A stretch of DNA of 64,000 bases from Ignavibacteriota bacterium (GTDB lineage: Bacteria; Bacteroidota; Ignavibacteria; Ignavibacteriales; Melioribacteraceae), in contig PAAX01000026.1 in assembly GCA_002698995.1 (NCBI GenBank), positions 124,001 to 188,000 on the forward strand. The letters are read 5' to 3'. Of this stretch, positions 6,718 to 31,019 are shown one piece after another; the stretch's first letter is position 1; the number at the start of each line of letters is the position of its first letter. Made by a program: the position numbers and the translations under genes. The notes beneath the pieces are model-generated. The model made no database searches. It worked only from the letters and a program-made list of their open reading frames with translations, and had not been told where the DNA came from.

Positions 6718-8283
6718 TTAGGCTTTACTCTCCATAGTAATAATCGGCAGAATCATTTCTTCCAGACTAATACCGCCATGTTGAAACGTATCTTTATACT
6801 GACTTAAATATTTATGATAATCAGTAGGATAAACAAAATAGTAATCTTCCTTACTAATAATGTAACTTATAGTTACACCTCTTTCCGGAAGTTTATATTC
6901 TTTAGGATTTTTTATGAATACGGCATGTTTATCGTCAACCTTTAAATTTCTTCCATATTTAAAACGAAGATTAGTTGAAGCTTCTCTATCACCTAGTACT
7001 TTTGCACCTCTTAAAGTTCTTATGCTGCCGTGATCAGTTGTAACTATAACTTTTGCATTTTTCATTTGAGCAATAACTTTGAACATACCTAAAAGAGATG
7101 AATGCTTGAACCAGCTTTCTGTTAATGATCTAAAAGCTGATTCATCCGGCGCAATTTCTTTTAGTAAATCAGAATCTGATCTTCCATGAGCAATCATATC
7201 CAAAAAATTTACAACTACAGCCATTAAGTGAGTTTTACTATGTGACTTTATATTCTGCTCAAATGATCTTCCAACTTCAGGATCAATAATCTTCATGTAC
7301 TTCATTTCATTTTTTAATTTTACTTTATTTCTATCAAGTAATAATTGAAGTAATTCTTTTTCATATTTATTTTGACTTCTTTCATCATCTTTTCCTTTCC
7401 AAAGAAGCGGATAATACTTTTCAATTTCTGATGGAAATAATCCGGCAAAAAGTGAATTTCTTGCATAAGGAGTAGCAGTTGGAAGAATTGAATAGTAATA
7501 ATCTTTTGAAATAGAATAATAATCTCTTAGATATTTTTCCATCACCATCCATTGATCTAATCTTAGGCAGTCTAAAACAAAATAGAAAATTGGTCCTTCA
7601 CTATTTTTTAATTTAGGCAGCACATAATTTTCGGTTATTTCGGTTGTTAAAACAGGAGTGTCTTCATATCCTAGATTATTGACCCAATTTTTATAATTCT
7701 TTTCAACAAATTTGCTGAACTCTTGATTGCACTCTCTTTTTTGATCAATTAGGGTTTGTCTTAAATCTACTTCCGGATGTCTGTCAAGTTCTAAATCCCA
7801 GTTAACAAGTTTAAGATAAATATCAATCCATTCATTCCAAGTCGGATTTTCTAAAAGTCTTCTAGAAATCTGATTGAAATCCTGTAGATAATCTTTTGCA
7901 ACATATTCATTAGATATTTTTTTTCTTTCAAGAATTTTTTTACAAACCATTAATATTTGTGAAGGAACAACCGGTTTTATTAGATAATCATTTATCTTAC
8001 TTCCTATTGCTTCATTCATCAATGATTCTTCTTCACTTTTGGTAACCATTACAACCGGAATATTAGGTTTGATTTCTTTAATAATTTGAAGAGTTTCTAA
8101 TCCACCTAAACCAGGCATCATTTCATCAAGAAAAATCAAATCAAAATTTTTATTTTTTACTTCTTCAATTGCATCTTCGCCATTAGTAACTGTTGATACA
8201 TCATAACCTTTTTCGGTAAGAAAAATCACATGTGATCTAAGCAAATCAATTTGATCATCAACCCAAAGAATTTGGTAACTCAT
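6718..8283 (-). CDS. porX: T9SS response regulator PorX (receiver plus PglZ-type phosphatase domain)
   Basis: Two-domain regulator of type IX secretion in Bacteroidetes. The receiver domain (about 1-120) has the acidic pair D9-D10, phospho-acceptor D53 in IFLDEMMPG, T81 and K103. A helical linker leads to an alkaline-phosphatase-superfamily PglZ domain (about 220-515) with FYFVLDCLRLDQW (metal-ligand Asp), PTATPYARNS holding the presumed Thr nucleophile (T271), VVNFLDMIAHGRSD and VTTDHGSIR. In Porphyromonas, PorX works with the kinase PorY and sigma factor SigP; neither is seen here. Start ATG has CGGAG upstream. It lies 27 bases after sprA, the T9SS channel gene, so co-expression is likely. 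Confidence 0.93.
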   Translation of the reverse strand: MSYQILWVDDQIDLLRSHVIFLTEKGYDVSTVTNGEDAIEEVKNKNFDLIFLDEMMPGLGGLETLQIIKEIKPNIPVVMVTKSEEESLMNEAIGSKINDYLIKPVVPSQILMVCKKILERKKISNEYVAKDYLQDFNQISRRLLENPTWNEWIDIYLKLVNWDLELDRHPEVDLRQTLIDQKRECNQEFSKFVEKNYKNWVNNLGYEDTPVLTTEITENYVLPKLKNSEGPIFYFVLDCLRLDQWMVMEKYLRDYYSISKDYYYSILPTATPYARNSLFAGLFPSEIEKYYPLLWKGKDDERSQNKYEKELLQLLLDRNKVKLKNEMKYMKIIDPEVGRSFEQNIKSHSKTHLMAVVVNFLDMIAHGRSDSDLLKEIAPDESAFRSLTESWFKHSSLLGMFKVIAQMKNAKVIVTTDHGSIRTLRGAKVLGDREASTNLRFKYGRNLKVDDKHAVFIKNPKEYKLPERGVTISYIISKEDYYFVYPTDYHKYLSQYKDTFQHGGISLEEMILPIITMESKA

Positions 8284-8310: not shown

Positions 8311-11300
8311 CTATTGAATAGAAATATTTACATCCAATCCGGCTTCGTTGGTAGTAGTTGGGGGAATTCTTGCAGCCCCTTCAGGTTCTACAGAAGTTCT
8401 TTTATAGAATAATGAAAGAGTAACGCGAGAACTCATAACATATTTTATTCTAGGTTCAATTGTTGTTCTTGTAGTACCATCCTGCGGTTTTCCTTCTTCG
8501 TTAAAATTTTCACCCATTTCAAAAATAACAGAAGAATTCTGTCCGCTTGTGTAAGAGAAGGATATTTCCAAATCATTTTTAAGGGAAAGACCAAATAAAG
8601 GAATTTCAAAACCGCTCTTTGAAAAACTTGCAGATATATTAATATCCTTTGAAAAAGATTCGGTTACATTTCTGGTAGTTACACCAAGATCATAACTTGT
8701 TTTTGTAGAATATTTAACCGAACCGGTTAAGTTTCCGCCCCACAATTTTCCAAAGGTTAAATTCAATCCAACAAGAGGAGCAAAGCCATAATTAATTCTT
8801 TGTGTTTGAATTTCCTGAACTCCATCGGTTGTAATTTTCCAACCTTCACTATAAGAAGAATTATAAGCATGAGATAAAGAAACTCTATCTGCAATACCGC
8901 TGAATAAAGGAATTTTTTCCAATCCATTCCAATTTATTCTCCAATTTGGTCTTGGAATATATTTGGTTACATCAGCAAGAATTGGAATTCTTGAAAGCCA
9001 GTTTATTGATTCAAAACCATCAACAAACGCCTGACTTAAATTCTCAGTTGGATTTGCAGAATTAGGATTATATAAAGAATTAACTTTAGTGATGCCGGCA
9101 TCATTAAATACATCGAATAAAATAAACTTCGGTAAGGTTAAAAATGATCTGTCAATTGTTCCGGTTGCAGTTACATTAGTAACGAATGCGTTTCCTAAAG
9201 AATCAGTTTGAATTGTAGTTGTTGAATTATTTCCCCAGCCAACATTCCAGGTAATATCTAAAGTTGCACCTTCCCATAACGGTCTGCTGGTTTTAATATC
9301 AAAACTATTTTTCTTTGTAAATTGATCTCTAAGATTTCCATTTGGAGCTCTTGGACCTATATCGTAATCCAAACCAAGCATGAAAGCTCTTGAAGGACCA
9401 TTATTTGTTTTTTGACTTATTCCCCAGAAATTAGAAAAACCTGTTCCCTCACCGGCTAAACCACTGCCGGATTTTGAATTAGTCTGACTATAATTAAATG
9501 AAATCTGATCATAATCAAAAACTATATACTTAGTTACTGCTTTTAACAAATTAAATGCGCGGGTGTAAATCGGTTCTGTTGGTACTTCAGTTGAGTCGGA
9601 AACAACTTGAGCTTCTGGATCAGTATCGGTAGTTTGGGGAGTTGTTGTTCTGGTTCTAGTACCCCCTCTGGTATTCCCAGTTCCTCTAGTGCTGGCAGAC
9701 TTTGATTCTTCTTCACCAAAAAGCGGAGCAAATAAAGATTTCAATCTAAGTGTTAATCCTGCAGAAATTCTATTAGAAAAACTTGCACCTTTACCAAGTT
9801 CTTCTTGATTGAAATTATTCTTCCAATTATATCTTACACCATAAGTTGCTGTAATAGTAAAGTATCTGTTTAGATCCCATATACTCGGCATTTTGGGATT
9901 TGTCCTTAAATCAAAGTTTTGATTGTAATTATAATCCTTACCAAATAAGTTACCTCCAAAAATATCTCTCCAAATTTCACCTTCTGTTCTTTCAGTTTCA
10001 ATTTGTGTAACCGGATCAATATTTGTAAGAAGATCAGCATAAGAAGATTGAACATCAACACTGTAATTTAGACTAAGATTTATTAATCCTCCTTCAGTCA
10101 TCTGCCATCCAAAAGAGGCACTGCGCTGACCGGTAAAGTCTCTTTGAATGTTTTCTGCAGCATTAGCATTTCTGCTTAAAGAACTATTTCTTTTTCTTGT
10201 AGCTTTAAATGAGCTATTAAAATTTTGAGGAGTGAAGAACACCTTTACATTTCTATAATCTTCAAAGATGCTGAGTAAATCACCGAGTAAAGGAATGTTA
10301 GCAGGATAGAAAAATAAATCTCTACTCATATTTACCGAATAATTTGCACCTGCATTCCATACCCAGCTTAACGAACGCAGAACTGTCGGTGATCTTCCAA
10401 TAGTTTTATTATAAGAAAAGTTAAAGGAAAGCTGATTAAAAGTATCTTCAATGTACCAAAGTTTAGTAGGAATCTTAAATTTAATATTTGATAAAGTCCA
10501 AGTATCCTTAATATTTACGGTATAAGTATCTGTAGTTAATCTGTTTGCTTCTTCTTTAGCCTCTTCATCAGTAAGTCCGTCGGAGATTAATTTATTTCTA
10601 AGCTGTTCACTTGCTTGTGAAACATCAATATCAGTTCCCGGTAAAAATATTGGTTTTGCAATTGATTCATTTCTAGAATAATTTACTGTTAAATTACTTC
10701 CTTGAGTATTAAATGGCATCAATTTCAGTACATCCAAATCAAAAGAAACACCCCAGCTTGTTCTGTCGATTCTTGAACCGAATCTTTCTGAAATTTTGTG
10801 AAAATATGGATTAGTTCTGCTGGTGTTGGCTCTAACAGTAAGAAGATCTGCTAGATTTATGGATGTTGAACCACTGTATGCCCAGCCTTTTGAATCGTCG
10901 GCATTTATAACTCTTAATTCATTTATCCAAATATCTCCAGATATTGGAAGAGTTAATCCATAAGGATCAGGTATTTGATCTAACTTAACATTGTTTACTT
11001 TTTGAGTTGGATTAATAATTCCAACACTAAAGAAAGTAACTTTTGTTAATGTTGGATCACCTAAAACTGCATAGGAATGCCCGGGAAAATCGGGAAGCAT
11101 AACTCTTTCAACTTCTCTTGAATTGTTTCTTGTCTGCTTAATTGCTGTCAATTCAGAAAAGACCATTGAGATTTCATTCCAACCTGCACGCACTGGCTGC
11201 CGATATTCATAATAGTTTAGTGTATCGGTTCCGAATCTTAAATAAATTTCTGCTGCATAAAAATCTTCATTAATATACTGTGAAACAGAACCGGGAAAAT

Positions 11301-14300
11301 CATTTTCATCACCATGAACAAACATCTTTAATTCACGATAATTGAACAAATCTAATGGTCTGTATAAATATTTAATTACTTCTCTTTTATCTCCGTCTTC
11401 TAATTCTTTAAGAGTAAGAAGCAATGACTGCTCATTCTTAAAAACTTCTTGATCAGGTTTTGATCTGTCTCGCTCTCTATTAACTCCGGGAGGACTTGTA
11501 TATTCGGGATTATCTTCAATATTTATTGTTGAGATGGTTATAGTAGAATCTTCATTAGCAGGTATTCCGGCAACTTCAACTTTCTGCCATTGGTTACCAA
11601 CAAGATTTAATTCAGCGAAACGAACATGAACAGGTTGATCTACTTCAGTCATCCAAATTCTGATTGTTTCAACTACTGAAAAACTTGGACTGCCAATTTC
11701 ATCAACAAAATCTTTTAAAGGTATTCTGTATAAAAACCATCCTTTATTTTCACCACCACCCCCTACTACAAAATTATTCTGCAAAGTATCAATCGGAATT
11801 TCATAGCTGTAATAGCTGTTAACTCTATCAAGAGTAAAATTTCTGTTCAAATCTTCCGAATCGGGAAAACGTCCAATATCTGTTAAAGCAGCATTTCCTT
11901 CAGTTCCGTTAATTCCAATATATTGATTTCTATCTATACTTGAAGTAGGTGAATAATTAAAATTATCATTACTTGGATCACCTTCAGAGGAAGCGAATTC
12001 CAATCTCTCCTGAGCATCAAAAATTCCATCAATACCGGTATCTTCTCCTTCATCCACAAGGTCATTAAGGTTTTTATCTTCAGTATCCAATCTGCCGTTT
12101 GGAATTACATCTTCACTTATCTGTCCAATATCAATTCTAATTTTAGCATCATTAGGAGCTTCAACAACTTGAAGCCAGAATTCAATAAATTCAATTCTTT
12201 CTTCGGTTAAGTTATTTGCAGTATTGGAAAGGGGTTTCATCATACCGCCCCAGTTTTGAAACGTATTTTCGTTCAATTGCGGATCATAATTATAAGCCCC
12301 TCTTTGAGTCGGTTCAAATACGTAATCCAATACTGTAACTTGTTCATCTTCCCTTGCTGCTTGTCTTTGAGGCCAAATATCTTTTACTTGAACCGGTGAA
12401 GGAAGAATATTGAACCACCAGCTTTTTCCTTTATAATTCATTCTTTCCAGATTTGTCAATCTTGTAGAATCAAGCTGATGTTGTTCCGGAAAACTCAAAT
12501 CTTTCCAACCGGTATAAGAAATACCGATAGGAATAATTCTTTTGGCTCCTTCAAAATCATCAATATAAGCTATACTTTTACTTTGATCACTTGAGATTGT
12601 ACTCTTCTTTGTATTGGGATCAGGATCAATGTAAGCATATTCTCCTTTGAAAGAGAATGTTGACATTTTATTTGTACTTATGATATTATCCAATCCCTTT
12701 GTAATAAACGGGAGATCAATTTCAGTTTGAAAATCTATACCATAAATTGAGTTGTTTAATGGTTCTTCACCAATTCTAACTTTGTCGCTAAGTGTCTGTT
12801 GATTAAGATTTAAGAATGAAAAACCAAGTGTTGTCTTTTTACTAAATTCATAAATACCGCGCAGCCCTAATAAAGTTTTTGAAGCCAACGCAAACAAGTC
12901 ATTCTTTTCGTAAGTGATTCGTAAATCAGCTCCCGGAACTAACGCCGCATCATTTCTAATAGTAACTTGACCGATATTATAATCTACTGAATAATCACTC
13001 CCCTCTCTCAATTCATTTCCGTTAAGTAAAACTCTAACGGAATTTTCAACAACGTTAAATCCAATATTAAATGTTGAAGAAACTGAAGCAGAATATTCAC
13101 CGGTAATTACAAACTTATCCTTTTCTCTATCTTGACGGGCATCTGTTTTAGTCTGCGTATAAATAGCATCATATCTCAAAGAATCTCCAAGAACAGCAGG
13201 AAGATCTCGTCCAAAAGGTTCTAGAACTGGAAATACAATTTCTCCGGTAGCCGGCAAAATAGTTCTTCCCGGGAAAAAGTCAAAAGCACCATCTGGTCCG
13301 CCGGTCTTGGCCGCATCTGTTCTATCAAGATTAAATAACTGAGTATATTTAGTTCCGTTGAAGTTATCCTGCGGTTCTTGACCAGGCAACTGATATTTAA
13401 TATCAAGAACAAAGCCTTCTTCTTTTACATCTCGTCCATCGATAGGATAAATGTTTTTTAGTTTTAATTTCCATGCAGTACCAAAAGAAGCATTCTGTGA
13501 TGGAGGCTGCAGGTTTTCAGGTTTTATTAATTTTAGAAGAAGTGTTCTTGATGTATCATCTTGAGCAAAATCTCTGAAAAAATCCCCGTAATAAATATCA
13601 TCATCGGCAGAAGTAGTGTTACCTTCAATTCTATATGCTACCGCAATTGCTTCGTTTTCTTGAATTGCAGTTTTAAAAGTTATAAAACCGGCATACTCAT
13701 CAACTTCATATTCACCTTCAGAAAGTCGAATAAATCTTGAATCGATAACACTTTGACCAGGTACACTATTTAGCTGCGGATCTCTTTGAGCATCAGGATA
13801 TCCTGTAATCGGTCTTGGTTCTAATTTGATAAATGCATTTGCTTTTCTTTCTTTGGTAGGATCAATAATTCCGAATGTAGTTTTCCAAACTTCAATTTCT
13901 TTTATTTGATTATATGCAACTATTTCATCAACTACAGGATTTGGATTTCCATAGATTTTATTAAATATGTTAAATCCTTCTCCTGTTTCTGCATAAACCG
14001 TATCAACAAAGTAATGGTTATCGGAATAATCATAAGCATGCTTTTCAAAAGTTTGAGTTTCAGAACCACCTGTTAATGATACTTCTTCAACTTCCCCTTT
14101 CTTTTGAGATGCTAAAGCGGTTAAAGAAAAAGGTCCCATTTGAAATCTTGCTTTAATACCAAATAAAGCTTCACTTCCGCCGACTAATGGGGAAGTCTGC
14201 AAAGAAACGTTACCGGCTTCTATACTTTGTATAATTTCATCTTCATAACCGGTGTATTTAATACTTAACTGATTTTCATATTCAAATGTACGCTCAGTGT

Positions 14301-15207
14301 TCCAGTCGGCAGCAATTGTTAATTTATCCCCAATAGTTCCGTTAACATTAATTTGCACCTGTTGTTTGAAATCAGGTTCATTTCTTGTATTGCCTAATCT
14401 AGATGCTGTTAAACCTTCTGTTGTTTCGTTTCTCCAAGCACCATGAATATCAACCGCACCAGAAATTCTTAAATTAATTACAGGTGGACCAAAAATACTT
14501 AAGAAAGAATTTGAAGGGAGAGGTATTTCTATGTTGGTTATATCCGAGATCAGTCCGGATAAATCTTTTTTATCATCCTTTAATTGATATGCATAACCTT
14601 GTTCTTCCCATAAATCTTTACTGATAGAATTGAGTTTCATATCAATATAATCTTCAACAGGAATTTTCAAGTATGTTTTTGTTGCTTGACCGGCAATAGT
14701 TTCTTTTATTAAAACAAATTGTCCAGTTGAGTCTAATTCAACAACCCTCTTAAAATATTTTGTTGATGGATAAGCAAAAAAGCTGGATTTCTTTTTGGAT
14801 CTAAAACTTACCGATTGATTATCCTCTCTCTGAAACTTGAAGTACTTTAATCTTGCAGTTGAATCGATAGCCATGCTGTCAACTTTTACTGTATCTATTA
14901 AACCATGAGAAATAGAATCAGCTCTGGTTAATAAGGAATCGATGTTAGTAAAATTTGAATCTGCAAGTGATAAAGTAGAATCGACAGATAGGGAATCTTG
15001 ATTGAATGCAGAATCTAACCCGATTGAGTCTGCCAAAATGGATATAAATTTGGGACTTTCCGGAATTAATAAGGAATTAAAATCATTGGTTAGTTCTTTT
15101 CCTGGATTTTTGGTTGAGGTAAACCCGATGGAAACAAATACTAAAACAATAAAAAAGGGAAACAAAAGAAATTTGGATCCCGCTATAAATAACCTTTTAT
15201 TCAACAA
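8311..15207 (-). CDS. sprA: T9SS outer-membrane translocon SprA (Sov family)
   Basis: Giant beta-barrel (2298 residues, normal for SprA) that forms the protein-conducting channel of type IX secretion in the outer membrane. A hydrophobic signal segment lies at about 10-30. Next comes a Ser/Asp-rich stretch with repeated DS pairs (about 60-125), then long beta-strand-rich sequence with repeated SprA blocks such as SIYGIDFQTEIDLP and IAYIDDFEGAKR. A Thr/Arg-rich low-complexity loop sits near 1830-1875. The protein ends in a barrel strand (LDVNISIQ). The start is TTG at 15207: an in-frame stop lies just upstream, there is an AGGT 10 bases before it, and no ATG follows before the signal peptide. 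It heads the run to panC. Confidence 0.95.
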   Translation of the reverse strand: MLNKRLFIAGSKFLLFPFFIVLVFVSIGFTSTKNPGKELTNDFNSLLIPESPKFISILADSIGLDSAFNQDSLSVDSTLSLADSNFTNIDSLLTRADSISHGLIDTVKVDSMAIDSTARLKYFKFQREDNQSVSFRSKKKSSFFAYPSTKYFKRVVELDSTGQFVLIKETIAGQATKTYLKIPVEDYIDMKLNSISKDLWEEQGYAYQLKDDKKDLSGLISDITNIEIPLPSNSFLSIFGPPVINLRISGAVDIHGAWRNETTEGLTASRLGNTRNEPDFKQQVQINVNGTIGDKLTIAADWNTERTFEYENQLSIKYTGYEDEIIQSIEAGNVSLQTSPLVGGSEALFGIKARFQMGPFSLTALASQKKGEVEEVSLTGGSETQTFEKHAYDYSDNHYFVDTVYAETGEGFNIFNKIYGNPNPVVDEIVAYNQIKEIEVWKTTFGIIDPTKERKANAFIKLEPRPITGYPDAQRDPQLNSVPGQSVIDSRFIRLSEGEYEVDEYAGFITFKTAIQENEAIAVAYRIEGNTTSADDDIYYGDFFRDFAQDDTSRTLLLKLIKPENLQPPSQNASFGTAWKLKLKNIYPIDGRDVKEEGFVLDIKYQLPGQEPQDNFNGTKYTQLFNLDRTDAAKTGGPDGAFDFFPGRTILPATGEIVFPVLEPFGRDLPAVLGDSLRYDAIYTQTKTDARQDREKDKFVITGEYSASVSSTFNIGFNVVENSVRVLLNGNELREGSDYSVDYNIGQVTIRNDAALVPGADLRITYEKNDLFALASKTLLGLRGIYEFSKKTTLGFSFLNLNQQTLSDKVRIGEEPLNNSIYGIDFQTEIDLPFITKGLDNIISTNKMSTFSFKGEYAYIDPDPNTKKSTISSDQSKSIAYIDDFEGAKRIIPIGISYTGWKDLSFPEQHQLDSTRLTNLERMNYKGKSWWFNILPSPVQVKDIWPQRQAAREDEQVTVLDYVFEPTQRGAYNYDPQLNENTFQNWGGMMKPLSNTANNLTEERIEFIEFWLQVVEAPNDAKIRIDIGQISEDVIPNGRLDTEDKNLNDLVDEGEDTGIDGIFDAQERLEFASSEGDPSNDNFNYSPTSSIDRNQYIGINGTEGNAALTDIGRFPDSEDLNRNFTLDRVNSYYSYEIPIDTLQNNFVVGGGGENKGWFLYRIPLKDFVDEIGSPSFSVVETIRIWMTEVDQPVHVRFAELNLVGNQWQKVEVAGIPANEDSTITISTINIEDNPEYTSPPGVNRERDRSKPDQEVFKNEQSLLLTLKELEDGDKREVIKYLYRPLDLFNYRELKMFVHGDENDFPGSVSQYINEDFYAAEIYLRFGTDTLNYYEYRQPVRAGWNEISMVFSELTAIKQTRNNSREVERVMLPDFPGHSYAVLGDPTLTKVTFFSVGIINPTQKVNNVKLDQIPDPYGLTLPISGDIWINELRVINADDSKGWAYSGSTSINLADLLTVRANTSRTNPYFHKISERFGSRIDRTSWGVSFDLDVLKLMPFNTQGSNLTVNYSRNESIAKPIFLPGTDIDVSQASEQLRNKLISDGLTDEEAKEEANRLTTDTYTVNIKDTWTLSNIKFKIPTKLWYIEDTFNQLSFNFSYNKTIGRSPTVLRSLSWVWNAGANYSVNMSRDLFFYPANIPLLGDLLSIFEDYRNVKVFFTPQNFNSSFKATRKRNSSLSRNANAAENIQRDFTGQRSASFGWQMTEGGLINLSLNYSVDVQSSYADLLTNIDPVTQIETERTEGEIWRDIFGGNLFGKDYNYNQNFDLRTNPKMPSIWDLNRYFTITATYGVRYNWKNNFNQEELGKGASFSNRISAGLTLRLKSLFAPLFGEEESKSASTRGTGNTRGGTRTRTTTPQTTDTDPEAQVVSDSTEVPTEPIYTRAFNLLKAVTKYIVFDYDQISFNYSQTNSKSGSGLAGEGTGFSNFWGISQKTNNGPSRAFMLGLDYDIGPRAPNGNLRDQFTKKNSFDIKTSRPLWEGATLDITWNVGWGNNSTTTIQTDSLGNAFVTNVTATGTIDRSFLTLPKFILFDVFNDAGITKVNSLYNPNSANPTENLSQAFVDGFESINWLSRIPILADVTKYIPRPNWRINWNGLEKIPLFSGIADRVSLSHAYNSSYSEGWKITTDGVQEIQTQRINYGFAPLVGLNLTFGKLWGGNLTGSVKYSTKTSYDLGVTTRNVTESFSKDINISASFSKSGFEIPLFGLSLKNDLEISFSYTSGQNSSVIFEMGENFNEEGKPQDGTTRTTIEPRIKYVMSSRVTLSLFYKRTSVEPEGAARIPPTTTNEAGLDVNISIQ

Positions 15208-21305: not shown

Positions 21306-22067
21306 ATGAAAATTGCAATGATTCAATATTCCCCGCTTTGGGAAGAGAAAGAAAAAAACATTCAAAAGATTGATGATCTTTTAGATAAAACGTCTGAAGC
21401 TGATTTAATCATTTTACCGGAGATGAGTCTGACTGGATTCAGTATGAATTCAGAAAAGATAGCTGAGGAGATCGACGGTATTTCGTTTCATTATTTCATT
21501 AAGAAATCAAGAGAATTAAAGAAGAATATTTTTGCCGGAATAGTTGAAAGAGATAAGAAGGATATTTTCAATTCACTTTTTCACTTTGATGAAAATGGTC
21601 TGATTAAAACTGTTTATAGAAAAATCCATCCATTCAGTATGGCAAAGGAAAATCAGTTTTATTCTTCAACAAGAGAAACAGTGATTACAGAAATTAATCA
21701 GATAAAAATCGGACTTTCTATTTGCTATGATTTAAGATTCCCAGAGCTTTATCGTCATTATGCAAAATCTGATTGTGAGATTCTTGTCAATATCGCAAAC
21801 TGGCCAATCAAAAGAATTAATCATTGGGATGCATTATGCAAAGCGCGTGCTATTGAAAATCTTGCATACTTTATTGGCGTTAACCGCACCGGTACCGATC
21901 AAAACGGATTTGTACACAACGGGCATTCACAAATAATTTCTCCTATGGGGGAAATTGAATTGATTTCGGAGAATGAAGAAAATGTTCTTTTACACGAAAT
22001 TGATTTGGAAAAAGTAAAAACAACTCGTGAACATCTTAACTTTTTAGATGATATTAAGTTAATATGA
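21306..22067 (+). CDS. Carbon-nitrogen hydrolase, omega-amidase (YafV/Nit2) type
   Basis: Nitrilase-superfamily amidase of 253 residues, the usual omega-amidase length. The catalytic triad is visible: E39 in LPEMSLTGF, K106 in YRKIHPF and C140 in SICYDLRFPELYR; also NIANWPIKRINHW and GVNRTGTD, which resemble omega-amidases that hydrolyse 2-oxoglutaramate or 2-oxosuccinamate in the methionine/glutamine transaminase cycle. It stands alone on the plus strand between two minus-strand blocks. Substrate is assigned by similarity only. Confidence 0.87.
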   Translation: MKIAMIQYSPLWEEKEKNIQKIDDLLDKTSEADLIILPEMSLTGFSMNSEKIAEEIDGISFHYFIKKSRELKKNIFAGIVERDKKDIFNSLFHFDENGLIKTVYRKIHPFSMAKENQFYSSTRETVITEINQIKIGLSICYDLRFPELYRHYAKSDCEILVNIANWPIKRINHWDALCKARAIENLAYFIGVNRTGTDQNGFVHNGHSQIISPMGEIELISENEENVLLHEIDLEKVKTTREHLNFLDDIKLI

Positions 22068-22079
22068 TTTTATAAATAG

Positions 22080-22103
22080 GACTGCCGAGATTAAACGACA
22101 GTC
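22080..22103. terminator. Possible bidirectional terminator hairpin
   Basis: GACTG (22080-22084) pairs with CAGTC (22099-22103), with a partial inner extension CG/CG, between the convergent ends of the omega-amidase and M14 peptidase genes. TTATTT follows on the plus strand. The stem is short and has one mismatch, so the call is weak. Confidence 0.35.
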
Positions 22104-22107
22104 TTAT

Positions 22108-23571
22108 TTAATTTATTCTAAGAATTGTATACTTATTCTCTTCAGTCAATTTTTCCTTGAAAAGATCATATTGAATTAATCCAATCTGTGACTGCGGCTC
22201 CAACGCAATAACAAGCATATTTGTGTGAAGTTGATTAGTCGGAACAAAATAAAAATCATTTGGATTAATATTTATTTTCTCAGATGAAACTTGTGGATAT
22301 TGATTTTCTAATTCTTCATCAACTGAATCGACAAAATTTTCTATTGTATATTGATCTGCTTCAGTTAAAGAATGATTTACTTCATAAAAAATTCCATGAT
22401 TATCCAACCAAGTTTTTAGTTCTACTATTTTCTTTGGAATCAAATAACCTTTTGGTTTTTCAACATCTAAATTTGAGATAACTTTTGCATGAAAATTATC
22501 GATTAATAAAGTAGTATCAGTATCAGTTTTTAAATTCAATAAGGTCAAGAATTTTTGCTCATCACCTTTAATGTGTTCAAGTCTTACAGCAACTTTTGAT
22601 AAATTTAATGCATCTTCTCTTGATTTTCTAATTACATCACGAATTTCATTTTTATTATTGTAAACAAATTCTAAAAATCCAAGAACTGCTCTAATTTGTC
22701 CTTCTGTTCTTCTTTCAATATTTTCTACAGAAGTTCTTCCATTAAGTCCCTCTAAAATAAAACTCATAGAGTTTAGAATTCCGAAACTTTGTCTGCCGTC
22801 ATTTATATCAATTGTGCTGTATCTCATTCTTTCAAGATTAGGGGGACCGCCAACTACATATTCATTAAAAGTAAAATCACGTTCTTCTAAAAAATTTTGT
22901 ATGTAGGGAATAAATTTTTGCTTTTGGAAATTTAGAATTTCATCATCAACATTTATGTTTGTTAAAGTACCAAACTGTTCATCCCAATTTTTTTGAAAAC
23001 CGAATGCTTCCCAAGATTTTGAAAAAGGTCTGTATTCATGAATATCAAGTGTAACTTGCGGCTGATATTTTTTGAATAACTGATGAAGTGCAATTGTTTC
23101 GGGCTGACTTAAAAGTAGGTGATCTCTATTCAGATCAGCATCGTTTCCATTTCTTCGCTCATCTAATTCACTTCCATCCGGATTCATTTGAGGTATCAAT
23201 AACAAATCTATTTTACCTAAAACATAAGTCAACTTTGATTCATAAATTCTCTTTACAATATTTATTAAAGCTTCTTTACCAGATTGCTCATTACCATGCT
23301 GCTGAGCAAATATCATTACTTTTATCTTGTTTGAATCTTTTCCAAATCCGCTGGTTGATACTTTGATAAAAGGAATAACTCTTCCTTTATTGGATAATGT
23401 AAGTGTATCCAGTTCCATCAAATCCGAATCATCAGATGATTCTTTTATGTAATTCATCATATCTTGATGAGAAGTCAACTTCTGAAAGTCGGATTTTTCA
23501 AGTGGTGTTCTGTGATCGGTACATGCAAAAAATAAAATTGAAAGAAGAACTAATACAAAAATATTTCTCAT
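22108..23571 (-). CDS. M14-family zinc carboxypeptidase, lipoprotein
   Basis: Predicted envelope-anchored metallopeptidase of 487 residues. The N-terminus MRNIFVLVLLSILFFACTDH has a lipobox with Cys17. The M14 zinc and substrate features appear in order: QQHGNEQSGKEAL (H and E ligands), DLNRDH, TLDIHEYRPF (third ligand His) and FILEGLNG, where the Glu may be the catalytic base. A C-terminal region of about 170 residues follows the catalytic domain. Its ATG overlaps the stop of the upstream cyanophycinase-family gene (ATGA), so it is the last gene of a four-gene peptidase operon. It likely trims peptides outside the inner membrane; the specificity is not readable. Confidence 0.87.
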   Translation of the reverse strand: MRNIFVLVLLSILFFACTDHRTPLEKSDFQKLTSHQDMMNYIKESSDDSDLMELDTLTLSNKGRVIPFIKVSTSGFGKDSNKIKVMIFAQQHGNEQSGKEALINIVKRIYESKLTYVLGKIDLLLIPQMNPDGSELDERRNGNDADLNRDHLLLSQPETIALHQLFKKYQPQVTLDIHEYRPFSKSWEAFGFQKNWDEQFGTLTNINVDDEILNFQKQKFIPYIQNFLEERDFTFNEYVVGGPPNLERMRYSTIDINDGRQSFGILNSMSFILEGLNGRTSVENIERRTEGQIRAVLGFLEFVYNNKNEIRDVIRKSREDALNLSKVAVRLEHIKGDEQKFLTLLNLKTDTDTTLLIDNFHAKVISNLDVEKPKGYLIPKKIVELKTWLDNHGIFYEVNHSLTEADQYTIENFVDSVDEELENQYPQVSSEKININPNDFYFVPTNQLHTNMLVIALEPQSQIGLIQYDLFKEKLTEENKYTILRIN

Positions 23572-25640
23572 TTTAGAAGAACCATTTTTTTTGTTATCGA
23601 TGAATTATTGAAACGCAAAATATAAAAATAAATTCCACTTGATAGATTTTTTGCATTAAAATTTACTTTGTAATTTCCGGGTGATTTTTGTTCGTTTACT
23701 AAGTTAGCAACTTCGTTTCCTAAAACATCATAAATTTTTAGTGAAACCAAATTGTTCTCTGAAGAAGCCGGAACTGAAAATTCTATTGTAGTAGCTGGGT
23801 TAAATGGATTCGGATAGTTATTCTCTAAATAAAATTGATTTGGAATTTTCTGGTCAGATTTATCTTCAACACTTGTTAAAGTTGAAAATCGATGTCGATC
23901 TAATTTGAAATATTTTATATCATTACTCATTGCATAAGTTACCCCAACTAAAGCAGCAGAATTTCTAGGATAAGAACCGCTGGCAGCAACATTTGAAGAA
24001 TCAAGATAAGTTGAAGTTGAATTATCAATTATAATTAAAGGATTGTTTGATTTCCCTAGGATTTCAACTGTCATTTTATTTATATCAAAGTATAAGTTTT
24101 GATCTGAATAAGAATAAATTCCCAGCACTCCTCTGCTTCTCATTAAACCCCAAGTTACAGCAGTAGTTCTATTTTCCGATAAATCATCATCATCAAACAA
24201 ACCGGGTTGAAAAATCATATTATTATAAATTCCAAGTCCATCTTTTAATTGTAATAATCCTCTATAAGCAGCTAATGAATTATTATCAGTATTATCAACA
24301 TAATTTTTACCGGCAATCTTTCCTGAATTGCCAATAAAGAAGATGAAAGTTTTTTCATTAATCTTATTGTTGAATACATTGCCTAGTTGAGTTGAGTTAT
24401 CTTTAAGAGATGAAAATAATTCTAAATCGTTACCGGAAAAAATTATAAAATCTGAGTTGTTAAGAATTGCAGAATATTCTGAATTGTTTAAGGCTTCTGT
24501 AGTAAGAATAATTTCCGAATAATTAATATTCACTGATGAAAGATAGTTGGTTAGATCAGAATTATTAACTCCGTTATGTGTTATAATGACAATGCTGCTG
24601 CAATTAGTCAATGTAAATGCAGTATCAAGACTGCTTTTGAAACTGTTAAATTTATCATTTGCGGTTAACACAAAATTTGTCTTTGGCAGATTTTCTAAAA
24701 CCGTTTGATAACTAACGTTGAATGGAATTGCGGAGTCAGGAATATTACTTAATTCCTGTGAAATTAAATTGAATCCCCAGCCATTAGTTAATTTTGCAGT
24801 TTTCATTCCGGGCATTGTATAATAGTTCGGATAGCCCCACTCAAATTCAAAAGGATCATAAGAGTCAACCGGCTGATCATGATAAAAAATCTCAACTGTT
24901 CCGGTACCATGCACTGTTGCATTTCCATTTGGTTCTATACATAAAGCAGTTTTATCATCTATGCCAATTGCATAATTCAGCCATTCGTTGTAAGTGGTAT
25001 AATTGAAAAAAATATTGTAATTAAACATTAACAATCTGCCGAATCTTGCTCTTTCAGTATAATGCGTATCAAAAATTGTTGATGGATAAATATTCAAAAT
25101 ATCATTATCTAATGTCATTCTAGAATAGAAAGGCATTCTTAAAGCAACATCTGAATAAGCTGAACCATTTTCAGCAGTAAAAACAAATCCGCTTAAAATT
25201 GCACAACCAGCGCTGGTCCCGGCTATAACTCCACCGGATTCATAAACTTCCTTAACAGCAGTTGCTGCTTTAGTATTTTTTAGATTTTTCACATACTGCC
25301 ATTGATCACCACCGGGAAAAAATATTGCTTTTGCAGTTATAATTTGGGCATAAGTCTCAATTGTATTTGCTTGATCTGCATTTGTAATAGGTAAAAATTC
25401 TACAGATTCCGAACCGAATGATTTAAAGTAATTTTGATACCAAGTTGGATCATATGTATTATCGTAATAAATAATTAATAATTTTCCGCTATCGCTTTTT
25501 TCAACTATCCAGGAATAAGGAGCATCACTCCATTCACCGTAATCTTCTGATCCCCCGCCGACAGCACAAATATAGCCCTGTGCTGATAATGTTATTGATG
25601 AACAGAGAACAAATAAAAAGAAGAACAATTTTTTAATCAT
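23568..25640 (-). CDS. Secreted cyanophycinase-family (S51) protein with T9SS sorting domain
   Basis: A 690-residue exported protein. A signal peptide (1-20, ending LSAQG) precedes an S51 peptidase/cyanophycinase domain (about 23-270) with FFPGGDQ (107-113), nucleophile S143 in AGTSAGCA and DTHYTERARFGRLL, a typical His-bearing block. Residues about 300-590 form a middle region of unknown fold. The last ~85 residues are a type A T9SS C-terminal domain beginning NYPNPFNPATTIEFSVP and ending ITKKMVLLK. It should be secreted through SprA and released or attached at the surface. Cyanophycinases cut multi-L-arginyl-poly-L-aspartate to beta-Asp-Arg; the substrate here is inferred. It overlaps both neighbours by a few bases. 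Confidence 0.87.
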   Translation of the reverse strand: MIKKLFFFLFVLCSSITLSAQGYICAVGGGSEDYGEWSDAPYSWIVEKSDSGKLLIIYYDNTYDPTWYQNYFKSFGSESVEFLPITNADQANTIETYAQIITAKAIFFPGGDQWQYVKNLKNTKAATAVKEVYESGGVIAGTSAGCAILSGFVFTAENGSAYSDVALRMPFYSRMTLDNDILNIYPSTIFDTHYTERARFGRLLMFNYNIFFNYTTYNEWLNYAIGIDDKTALCIEPNGNATVHGTGTVEIFYHDQPVDSYDPFEFEWGYPNYYTMPGMKTAKLTNGWGFNLISQELSNIPDSAIPFNVSYQTVLENLPKTNFVLTANDKFNSFKSSLDTAFTLTNCSSIVIITHNGVNNSDLTNYLSSVNINYSEIILTTEALNNSEYSAILNNSDFIIFSGNDLELFSSLKDNSTQLGNVFNNKINEKTFIFFIGNSGKIAGKNYVDNTDNNSLAAYRGLLQLKDGLGIYNNMIFQPGLFDDDDLSENRTTAVTWGLMRSRGVLGIYSYSDQNLYFDINKMTVEILGKSNNPLIIIDNSTSTYLDSSNVAASGSYPRNSAALVGVTYAMSNDIKYFKLDRHRFSTLTSVEDKSDQKIPNQFYLENNYPNPFNPATTIEFSVPASSENNLVSLKIYDVLGNEVANLVNEQKSPGNYKVNFNAKNLSSGIYFYILRFNNSSITKKMVLLK

Positions 25641-26484
25641 TGGTTAACACCTTTTTAGATTTTATGTCAAATCTATCATTTGAATTCAATATATGAAGTT
25701 TAATGTTTTCTGCCCCGAATTGTTCTTTAGAATTGATTGATATTTTTGAATCGGAAGCATCATAAACTATTACTTGATATTCACCTAAAACTTGGAACTC
25801 CATTTCATTATTAACAATAATACTTGTCTCTTCATCAATTCCAATTCCGAGTAAGTTTGGATTTTCCAAAACCAGACTTATCAAACGGTTTTGTCTTTTT
25901 CTAAAAATAAAATGCTGATCAACAATTGCATCTTCAATAAAACCAAATCCTTCTGATGTAATTACATTCCCTTTTTCAATGGTTACAAAAGAATAAGAGG
26001 AATCATTATTCTTTGCTTCATCTCCTGTAATCATAATTTGACTCATTACAGCGGATCCTGCACTTGTTCCTCCTATTACTCCGCCTGAATTGTATATCTC
26101 TTTAATTCTATTAAATAATTTTGTCCCAAGCAAATCTGCAGTTAGTCTTCTTTGATCTCCGCCGGAGAAGAATATACCTGTCACTCCGTTCAATTTTTCT
26201 AAAACAGAATCATTATCTGCCTCTTCCTTTTTCGCATAAACAAATAAAGCTTCTTTTGCTCCCAATTCTTTTAATTGATTTGCTTGATAAATTCCGGTAT
26301 CAACTGCATCACCGCTGGCATTTGGTATTACTGCAATTTTCGAATCGGCGCCGCCTGCTAATTCAATAAATTTCTGCATGACATAAACCGGTCTTTTTCC
26401 TCCGCCAATAATTACAAGATTTCCTTGTGCACTCAATTCAACAAATAATAAAACAACTAAAATTGTTATGATTTTTGATTTCAT
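25633..26484 (-). CDS. Cyanophycinase-family (S51) peptidase
   Basis: A 283-residue protein close in size to true cyanophycinase. A short signal peptide (1-20, VELSAQG) suggests export. The S51 features are NLVIIGGGKRPVYVM, FFSGGDQRRL (105-114), nucleophile S141 in GGTSAGSAVMS, IVDQHFIFRKRQNRL (catalytic-type His and basic residues) and GIGIDEETSI. It matches the cyanophycinase pattern better than its longer neighbour. It overlaps that neighbour by 8 bases and the upstream M20 peptidase gene by four. Without a T9SS tail it would stay in the periplasm. Activity on cyanophycin is inference from family and operon. Confidence 0.87.
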   Translation of the reverse strand: MKSKIITILVVLLFVELSAQGNLVIIGGGKRPVYVMQKFIELAGGADSKIAVIPNASGDAVDTGIYQANQLKELGAKEALFVYAKKEEADNDSVLEKLNGVTGIFFSGGDQRRLTADLLGTKLFNRIKEIYNSGGVIGGTSAGSAVMSQIMITGDEAKNNDSSYSFVTIEKGNVITSEGFGFIEDAIVDQHFIFRKRQNRLISLVLENPNLLGIGIDEETSIIVNNEMEFQVLGEYQVIVYDASDSKISINSKEQFGAENIKLHILNSNDRFDIKSKKVLTND

Positions 26485-27584
26485 TTTTTCACCAGATTTA
26501 ATGCTACTTCAAAAGCTTTTTGAAAATCTTTATATAAAATATATTCATCATTCGCGTGCGGATTCTTAGCTCCAATTCCAAGATTTAACGCCATAACTCC
26601 TCTAGCATTAAACGAATTTGCGTCACTTCCTCCTCTCGAAAGAGTTGGTTTAGCCTCTAATCCACTTTGCTCAATTGCGCTTTTTATATTCTTAAAAATT
26701 TCAGATTCTTCATCAATATTGTATGGTTCAAAATCCCATATTACTTCTTTTTGAAATTTTGCATTGTAACTTGAACATACTTTCTCAATTTTTTCATCTA
26801 GCTCAGAAATTTTTAGAAGAATTTCATCTTTACTGCTAGAACGAATTTCTCCTTCAAAAAATGTCTGCTCGGGAACCACATTAACTGCACTTCCCCCTTC
26901 AATTCTACCGATATTTAAAGTTGTATTTTCTGCAATTCTACCCTGCTGAATATCTGATAAAATCTCTGAGACAATTTTTATACTGTTAATTCCCTTTTCC
27001 GGACTAATTCCAGAATGAGAAGCTTTTCCTAAAACGATATACTTAAAAGTAACAGCACCTAATGCTTGATTAACAATATATCCGGTATCCAAATATGAAT
27101 CAAAAACATACGCGTATTGAATAGAATCTTTTAATAAAATATTTTTTGATCCGGCTAAAGTTGTTTCTTCGCACACAGTAAAGCCAACACTGAAAGGTTT
27201 TACTTCTATTTTGTTTTGCTTTATGAATTTTATAAGTGCAAGTAGAAGTGTATTCCCAACACGATTATCAACACCAAGAACTGTATTTCCGTCAGATGTA
27301 ATTCTGTCTTCATCCAGAATTATTTTAACATCAAGTGTTGGTCTTGCAGTATCCATGTGAGATGTTAAAATAAAATCACCGCCCCCATTTATTTCAGCTA
27401 CTACGTTCCCGGTATTTGATCCGGTTACAAATTGTGATTCATCCTCATAAAATTCCATTGAAAGTTGTTTGAGAAAATTCTTGATGTAGTCTGCTACTGG
27501 TTTTTCATTTTGTGATAATGCGTTGATTTTAGTTATTTCAGAAAAGATTTTTATTAGTTCGGGTTCTACATGTGTAATATTCAT
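26481..27584 (-). CDS. M20-family metallopeptidase (PepT-like)
   Basis: Cytoplasmic di-zinc aminopeptidase of the M20 family, 367 residues, no signal peptide. The zinc ligands are visible in LTSHMDTARP, LGVDNRVGN and VCEETTLAGS (Glu-Glu with catalytic Glu), followed by the dimerization insert containing GKASHSG and a late SRGGSDANSF block. Sequence is nearer to tripeptidase T-like proteins than to DapE or ArgE. As the first gene of the operon with two cyanophycinase-family proteins and an M14 carboxypeptidase, it may hydrolyse the imported di- or tripeptides. A sigma70-like promoter lies just upstream. Confidence 0.87.
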   Translation of the reverse strand: MNITHVEPELIKIFSEITKINALSQNEKPVADYIKNFLKQLSMEFYEDESQFVTGSNTGNVVAEINGGGDFILTSHMDTARPTLDVKIILDEDRITSDGNTVLGVDNRVGNTLLLALIKFIKQNKIEVKPFSVGFTVCEETTLAGSKNILLKDSIQYAYVFDSYLDTGYIVNQALGAVTFKYIVLGKASHSGISPEKGINSIKIVSEILSDIQQGRIAENTTLNIGRIEGGSAVNVVPEQTFFEGEIRSSSKDEILLKISELDEKIEKVCSSYNAKFQKEVIWDFEPYNIDEESEIFKNIKSAIEQSGLEAKPTLSRGGSDANSFNARGVMALNLGIGAKNPHANDEYILYKDFQKAFEVALNLVKK

Positions 27585-27618: not shown

Positions 27619-27647
27619 ATACTAACAAAATATTAATTACTTGTCAA
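27619..27647 (-). promoter_or_regulatory. Candidate promoter of the peptidase operon (TTGACA-N17-TAGTAT)
   Basis: On the minus strand TTGACA (27647-27642) is a perfect -35, followed by a 17-base spacer and TAGTAT (27624-27619), four of six matches to the -10 consensus. It lies 35 bases before the M20 peptidase ATG and downstream of the terminator at 27702-27732, so it is well placed. It differs in type from the TTTG/TAnnTTTG candidates elsewhere. Confidence 0.4.
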
Positions 27648-27701: not shown

Positions 27702-27732
27702 AAAAAAAAGTCCCATTTAATTATGGGACTTT
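27702..27732 (-). terminator. Rho-independent terminator of the manC-PGI/PMI operon
   Basis: A perfect 10-base-pair stem (27707-27716 with 27723-27732; AAAGTCCCAT and its complement) and a 6-base loop end in a run of T residues on the minus strand. It begins 15 bases after the stop of the PGI/PMI gene and separates it from the peptidase operon. Confidence 0.9.
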
Positions 27733-30204: not shown

Positions 30205-30615
30205 ATGACATGTGTAACATTTAGACCAAACAGTTTAGATCAATTAACAAATGAATTGTTTAGAAGAATAAATGAAGATTCAAAAACCGCTGTACGTTCA
30301 ACAAAAACGGACATTTACAAAAATGATAAAAGTCTGGTTTTTGAAATGGAATTACCTGGTTATTCTAAAACTGAAATCAATGTTTCATCGAAAGAGGATA
30401 AATTAACCATCACAGCAGAAAAGAAAAATGATGAGAAAAATGAAGTCAAGTACATTAGAAAAGAAAGACTTGAAGGAAAAATTGAAAGATCATTTATAAT
30501 TCCTGAAGAATATGATTTATCAAAAACATCGGCAAAATTTGAGAATGGATTACTTACCATTACAATTGAAGAATATGTTAAACAAGAAAGAGAAATAGAA
30601 ATCTCAGTAAAATAA
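30205..30615 (+). CDS. Small heat shock protein, Hsp20 family (first of three)
   Basis: ATP-independent holdase that keeps unfolding proteins soluble. The 136-residue protein has the alpha-crystallin domain (about 30-125) with IYKNDKSLVFEMELPGYSK, KLTITAEK and the A-x-x-x-n-G-x-L type signature KFENGLLTITI, then the C-terminal I-x-I anchor IEI. Its N-terminal arm is short. AGGAGA lies ten bases before the ATG. It starts a three-gene operon of diverged Hsp20 paralogs behind the repeat-bearing leader. Confidence 0.92.
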   Translation: MTCVTFRPNSLDQLTNELFRRINEDSKTAVRSTKTDIYKNDKSLVFEMELPGYSKTEINVSSKEDKLTITAEKKNDEKNEVKYIRKERLEGKIERSFIIPEEYDLSKTSAKFENGLLTITIEEYVKQEREIEISVK

Positions 30616-30626
30616 GGAGATTCGTT

Positions 30627-31019
30627 ATGTCTGCATCAAAAGATATAGTAAAAATGAATAAAACTGAAAACTGGGAATCTGAGTTTAAATTGAATGAATC
30701 AATTGCACCCGAAGTAAATATTTATGAAACCGAAAATGATTTCTTCGTAATTGCATTTGTTCCCGGTGTAAAAAGAGATCTGATTAAGGTTAGAATTCAA
30801 AACGATAAATTGGTTATAAAAGCAAAATTGAATACTGATGAAAATTCAGAAGTAGAATTTATTCATAAAGAAAGAGAGATTGGAAACTATTACAGAGAGT
30901 TGAGATTAAACGAGTCTGTAAATCAAGAAAAAATAGAAGCGGTTTATTCTGAAGGAATTTTGACTGTTAAACTGGCAAAATCCGAAAATTCTAAACCACG
31001 TAACATAGAAATTGAATAA
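30627..31019 (+). CDS. Small heat shock protein, Hsp20 family (second of three)
   Basis: A 130-residue Hsp20 with the alpha-crystallin domain at about 25-120: PEVNIYETENDFFVIAFVPGV, KLVIKAKL and YSEGILTVKLAK, ending in NIEIE, a short I-x-I tail. It differs clearly from its two neighbours and has no long N-terminal arm, so it may form mixed oligomers with them. AAGGAG sits just before the ATG and overlaps the region of the first gene's stop; the gap is only 11 bases. Confidence 0.9.
   Translation: MSASKDIVKMNKTENWESEFKLNESIAPEVNIYETENDFFVIAFVPGVKRDLIKVRIQNDKLVIKAKLNTDENSEVEFIHKEREIGNYYRELRLNESVNQEKIEAVYSEGILTVKLAKSENSKPRNIEIE

Follow-up and report, generated by a model that had tools for sequence, protein, structure and literature searches.

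A peptidase operon of an Ignavibacteriota bacterium as the probable peptidase half of a split locus for scavenging cyanophycin or a similar polymer

Cyanophycin is a nitrogen-rich storage polymer of cyanobacteria that is also made by many other bacteria, and to our knowledge the organisms that consume it are poorly known. S51 enzymes cut cyanophycin or related beta-linked peptides. An operon of four peptidase genes, two of them S51, in a 64,000-nucleotide stretch of an Ignavibacteriota genome (the whole stretch analysed, here called the window) thus raises the question of which polymer the encoded proteins might degrade, and of whether the set represents a new kind of system. We think it likely that the operon represents the peptidase half of a scavenging locus for cyanophycin or a closely similar beta-Asp-linked polymer, a substrate that we infer. 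The gene set is most likely a variant of the cyanophycin-scavenging locus built on the Type IX secretion system (T9SS) and TonB, and not an undescribed kind of system.

All four genes lie on the minus strand. They encode a PepT-like, cytoplasmic M20-family metallopeptidase (26481..27584; 367 aa), a small S51 cyanophycinase-like protein with a signal peptide (25633..26484; 283 aa), a T9SS-exported tandem S51 protein (23568..25640; 690 aa), and an M14 metallocarboxypeptidase lipoprotein with a C-terminal beta-rich domain (22108..23571; 487 aa). Re-reading the open reading frame coordinates gave overlaps of 4, 8, and 4 bases between neighbors, in agreement with the first-pass annotation, whose assignment of the products to M20, S51, S51 with a T9SS tail, and M14 was upheld by Pfam and NCBIfam. 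Its signal peptides and its M14 lipoprotein (lipobox LFFAC) are also evident on reading the sequence; compartments are assigned here from signal peptides, lipobox, and T9SS tail. A promoter-like site (TTGACA-17-TAGTAT; 27619..27647, minus strand) precedes the first gene, and terminator-like hairpins on the same strand lie directly 3' of the M14 gene (22080..22103) and between the upstream SIS gene and the operon (27707..27732). All three are consensus matches only; terminator-like sites numbered 7 against 2.7 expected, and the count of promoter-like sites is not above chance expectation. Searches with Rfam and for tRNAs and tandem repeats gave no match at the operon. A carbon-nitrogen hydrolase gene (21306-22067, plus strand), possibly with an amidase role, converges on the operon end. 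Two tandem plus-strand genes that read as Hsp20-like (136 and 130 aa, 11 bases between them) occupy 30205-31019.

The small S51 protein matches PF03575 (75.7 bits) and, at 185.3 bits, lies above the cut-off of 126.6 for the cyanophycinase equivalog TIGR02069; the GTSAG and DQHF blocks reported at first pass are indeed intact. Nine catalytic and binding residues of CphB have been listed (PMC3235067), namely S132, H174, E201, Q101, D172, Q173, R178, R180, and R183 in CphB numbering, and all nine are present in each of the eight members of the small-S51 clade. This test is not decisive for cyanophycin activity, since 7uqv, the closest solved relative and titled "pseudo-CphB," keeps the same nine. 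In a tree of 24 S51 sequences the locus-borne small S51s form one clade (support 99/100) apart from the CphA-linked enzymes, and the scavenger clade carries a conserved loop insertion near residue 155 that the CphA-linked enzymes lack. The protein thus resembles CphB of Synechocystis (3en0/7uqw) in its nine residues and in exceeding the TIGR02069 cut-off, but differs in being exported, in its extra loop, and in having scavenging genes rather than cphA as neighbors. From its sequence it is probably periplasmic.

The larger S51 protein matches PF03575 at 37 bits and TIGR02069 at 100.4 bits, under the cut-off of 126.6, and has DTHY where the small protein has DQHF. Its predicted catalytic domain 1 (24741..25577, minus strand; aa 22-300) bears a CphE-like DTH motif; Q113, S143, D191, H193, R197, and R199 are invariant in 27 orthologues. 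In CphB numbering these orthologues all keep Q101, S132, D172, H174, R178, and R180, and R183 is found in 26 of them. Threonine stands at the Gln173 position, a change also described in extracellular CphE, and Glu201 of the triad is replaced by Asp in 25/27; Asp as the third triad residue is functional in the S51 enzyme MccG (PMC9239234). In the AlphaFold2 model (pLDDT 83.8), domain 1 aligns with cyanophycinase structures (7uqv, Z 26.9; 7uqw, CphB with a cyanophycin dimer, Z 26.5), against Z 16-17 for PepE structures. The "extra middle region" of about 300 residues described at first pass is present, but it is no unexplained insertion: it is a second S51 fold lacking catalytic residues (domain 2; 23871..24710, minus strand; aa 311-590). 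Aligned with hhalign, profiles of the two domains, each built from the 27 orthologues, match across 231 columns (E 2.3e-6, probability 89%), and the PepE structure 3l4e matches model residues 319-531 with Z 12.6. Because conservation is lost at the positions equivalent to the catalytic Ser, His, and acid, domain 2 is probably a non-catalytic duplicate, one that may hold substrate. Compared with Pseudomonas CphE through the latter's reported residues, the protein is likewise exported and has GTSAG, DTH, Gln101, and the three binding arginines; it adds a T9SS tail and the degenerate second domain, and has Asp for Glu in the triad.

The tail itself (23568..23816, minus strand; aa 609-690) is a type A sorting domain, as had been proposed (TIGR04183, 43 bits against a cut-off of 23; PF18962, 43.2 bits). 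SprA, the T9SS outer-membrane translocon (8311..15207; TIGR04189, 1033.9 bits), and the T9SS response regulator PorX (6718..8283; NF052313, 730 bits) are encoded side by side on the minus strand, outside the operon and about 7 kb from it, so that a secretion route for the tailed S51 is encoded within the window. In a whole-protein search of the phylum, the tail drew hundreds of unrelated T9SS cargos; later searches used a tail-trimmed alignment. Among 149 genomes sampled from the class, 14 have an orthologue of the tailed S51, short S51-only matches being left out, and within its own family this genome alone has one among the members sampled. The distribution is therefore patchy.

Gene order in relatives places the operon in a larger setting. 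A locus of ten genes on one strand encodes, in order, M20, small S51, a YfcC transporter, a T9SS-tailed protein of about 372 aa, an RpiR regulator, a TonB receptor, a protein of about 915 aa, a PorV-like protein, the T9SS-tailed S51, and M14. Gene-order reconstruction found it contiguous in genomes G128, G229, and G215, and contigs of G208 and G222 agree; in G128 a C45-like gene is inserted ahead of the tailed S51. The window's own family includes a genome (G019) whose locus has M14 and lacks the tailed S51. Adjacency of tailed S51 and M14 recurs in about 17 distinct genomes. Conservation of the four-gene order, suggested as a check at first pass, therefore stands in part: among the sampled genomes, which are not exhaustive, the exact block occurs in this genome alone, and at least three relatives have all four inside the contiguous ten-gene locus.

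Two features of this locus deserve separate mention. The protein of about 915 aa (L041, 4607-7351, and orthologues) ends in a T9SS-like C terminus and matches no Pfam or NCBIfam family. Its gene always lies between those for the TonB receptor and the PorV-like protein, it shrinks to 624-656 aa in a second subtype (G000, contig C32; L082, 9235-11109), and its many paralogous matches in G000 suggest a larger family of receptor partners. M14 is often followed by menC/OSBS-like enolase-superfamily and carboxynorspermidine-synthase-like genes (L117, 9131-11421; L041, 13357-18426), for which a racemase is one possibility.

In the present genome, the block in the window corresponds to the two ends of the ten-gene locus joined together. 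YfcC is encoded on the same contig, 38 kb from the operon (C31:106918-108318), with 57% identity to the G128 protein. A third piece on contig C32 runs T9SS protein, RpiR, TonB receptor, T9SS-tailed protein, PorV-like protein, and C45. Its receptor, T9SS-tailed, and PorV-like proteins are closer to their locus-encoded counterparts in G152 and G253 (51-63% identity) than to the G128 type (31-38% over the main alignments), which assigns them to a second locus subtype. The genome accordingly offers an example of a conserved locus in three places with internal order kept in each piece. Transporter genes that cluster with the cyanophycinase in G128, G229, and G215 do not do so here; as they are unlinked, their joint role with the operon is deduced from relatives.

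Particular questions surround the final cleavage of dipeptides. M14-family CphZ enzymes are beta-Asp-Arg/Lys dipeptidases of alpha- and gamma-Proteobacteria (Sharon et al. 2023, as described in PMC10206079), and the isoaspartyl dipeptidase of Firmicutes and Bacteroidota with cyanophycin genes is stated to be undiscovered (PMC10206079). In the present set, M20 and M14 occupy the place where iadA or iaaA is reported in utilization loci. The M20 protein (PF07687, 67.5 bits; PF01546, 45.9 bits; PepT-like TIGR01883, 223 bits, under the cut-off of 274) has metal-site residues H76, D78, D106, E139, E140, D162, and H343 invariant in five locus orthologues, and is a candidate intracellular beta-aspartyl dipeptidase. 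The M14 protein (PF00246, 57.5 bits) is modeled (pLDDT 90.3) as a carboxypeptidase A/B fold over residues 18-308 (Z about 25) followed by the beta-rich domain; H92, E95, R149, H178, and E274 are invariant in 22 orthologues, with the zinc site at H92, E95, and H178. It is a candidate isoaspartyl dipeptidase or carboxypeptidase. Like CphZ, it is an M14-family metallopeptidase encoded beside cyanophycinase genes; it differs from CphZ as described in being a lipoprotein whose classical carboxypeptidase A/B fold has a C-terminal domain added to it. A search of the PDB with M14 profiles and the model returned no recognizable cyanophycin dipeptide hydrolase among the matches listed, a result that excludes nothing. 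Plasmid cyanophycinase clusters examined in search of CphZ included cphA-cyanophycinase clusters, several with IaaA; none had M14.

It would be tempting to argue that M14 or M20 must be the dipeptidase because IaaA is missing. That argument was rejected: IaaA-like genes are present in most locus-bearing genomes, usually unlinked, and in this genome an IaaA-like lipoprotein gene lies on contig C19, unlinked to the operon. IadA searches of 14 genomes gave none above cut-off. With no IadA above cut-off in those genomes but IaaA-like genes present, it is plausible that a new dipeptidase is needed, though nothing compels one. M14 and M20 are two conserved, expressible candidates for the missing isoaspartyl dipeptidase of Bacteroidota. 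We advance only tentatively, as somewhat likelier to fail than to hold, the combined proposal that M14, M20, or both represent new beta-Asp-Arg/Lys dipeptidase families and that the TonB receptor, the T9SS-tailed protein of about 915 aa, and the PorV-like protein form a SusD-free importer in the outer membrane for a polymeric polypeptide.

Scavenging is supported by intact triads, the cyanophycinase match, the lack of CphA1, and membership of a conserved uptake locus. Across the whole genome the CphA1 model found nothing above its cut-off of 850 bits, the best of several weak Mur-ligase-like matches reaching 104; such absence is as expected for a scavenger. The two S51 genes here are those the genome holds. 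The scavenging of an extracellular poly-amino-acid proposed at first pass consequently gains support, with cyanophycin its most likely substrate, though the layered order proposed there left out the outer- and inner-membrane transporters, whose genes lie elsewhere in this genome. A possible sequence of events, with compartments, transport roles, and step order all inferred, would begin with the T9SS placing the tandem S51 on the cell surface, where CphE-like domain 1 could free beta-Asp-X dipeptides or short oligomers while the dead domain 2 might hold substrate. The TonB receptor and its T9SS-tailed and PorV-like partners, on another contig here, would import the products; the periplasmic small S51 would complete depolymerization; beta-Asp-Arg/Lys dipeptides would be split by the lipoprotein M14, by M20 in the cytoplasm, or by both; and YfcC would carry dipeptide or amino acid over the inner membrane.

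Several observations count against this reading: the large S51 falls under the equivalog cut-off and has lost E201 to Asp, pseudo-CphB shares the nine residues, the clade has its loop insertion, the transporter genes of this genome are unlinked, and a look for arginine-catabolism genes next to the operon, as the first-pass annotation had advised, found none. The locus could instead scavenge other beta-aspartyl or isopeptide material, such as isoaspartyl-rich damaged protein, isoAsp peptidoglycan cross-bridges, or poly-aspartate, with S51s that are not true cyanophycinases. The separate clade with its insertion and the pseudo-CphB nature of the nearest solved structure would fit such a substrate, and M14, M20, and S51 together could process mixed peptides. 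We nonetheless consider this unlikely, given how far the small S51 exceeds the cyanophycinase cut-off, the retention of the CphE-type DTH, the recurrence of YfcC, TonB receptor, and S51 beside iadA in a gammaproteobacterium, and a literature context that favors cyanophycin (PMC10206079, PMC6243061).

More general peptide scavenging, in which the S51s would be PepE-like alpha-aspartyl dipeptidases and the operon a gathering of peptidases for protein-derived peptides, seems quite improbable. S51 does include PepE, PepE structures do match domain 1, and both M14 and M20 span a broad range of peptidases; but the fit to cyanophycinase structures is far closer (Z 26-27 versus 16-17), the CphB binding arginines R178, R180, and R183 are kept, and the set is conserved together with a receptor, a transporter, and a regulator of its own. 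Chance adjacency of four genes that form no functional unit is scarcely credible: the uniqueness of the exact block M20-S51-S51T9-M14 among sampled genomes would be its one attraction, against the 4- to 8-base overlaps, the hairpins on either side, and the finding that relatives from other families carry all four within a single contiguous locus. We rejected it on the conservation of the ten-gene locus. Scavenging of cyanophycin or a close analog thus remains the preferred reading.

How new, then, is the system? The first-pass annotation knew of no described system with this set, a view that does not survive comparison with the literature. A cyanophycin-utilization locus has been reported in Bacteroidetes strain L21-Spi-D4 (Salinivirga; Ben Hania 2017, as cited in PMC10206079 and PMC6243061), one plain and one Por-tailed S51 are paired in Salinivirga and strain Omega (PMC6243061), and genomes with cyanophycinase and without cphA1 usually have an isoaspartyl dipeptidase in the cluster, often with a transporter (PMC10206079). 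The present locus, like that of L21-Spi-D4, combines cyanophycinase genes with a transporter and a plain with a Por-tailed S51; its outer-membrane module is instead the RpiR-linked TonB receptor with the T9SS-tailed protein of about 915 aa and the PorV-like protein, M20 and M14 stand where iadA is reported, and the present genome has the locus in separate pieces. Bacteroidales relatives have SusC/SusD in place of that module: in L068 and L073, T9SS-tailed S51 and M14 flank YfcC, an ECF sigma factor, FecR, SusC, and SusD. The culturable Marivirga aurantiaca S37H4 has the order S51T9-SusC/D-S51-YfcC, with an S51 gene on each side of SusC and SusD. Because these homologues adjoin SusC/SusD and YfcC as reported loci do, we read the set as a T9SS/TonB variant. 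A Pseudoalteromonas plasmid carrying iadA, yfcC, a TonB receptor, cyanophycinase, and a further S51 represents an independent gammaproteobacterial cluster; our literature search did not find YfcC mentioned with cyanophycin. The novelty lies in the inventory of components, their rearrangement, the pseudo-S51 domain, and the M14/M20 dipeptidase candidates, and the variant suggests that a SusD-free T9SS/TonB route can serve a polypeptide. A further group of Bacteroidota S51 lipoproteins of about 340 aa (L051; L052, 9262-10314; L053) clusters with the T9SS-tailed S51 domain (100/99), and in L052 the gene adjoins SusC/SusD, IaaA, and YfcC.
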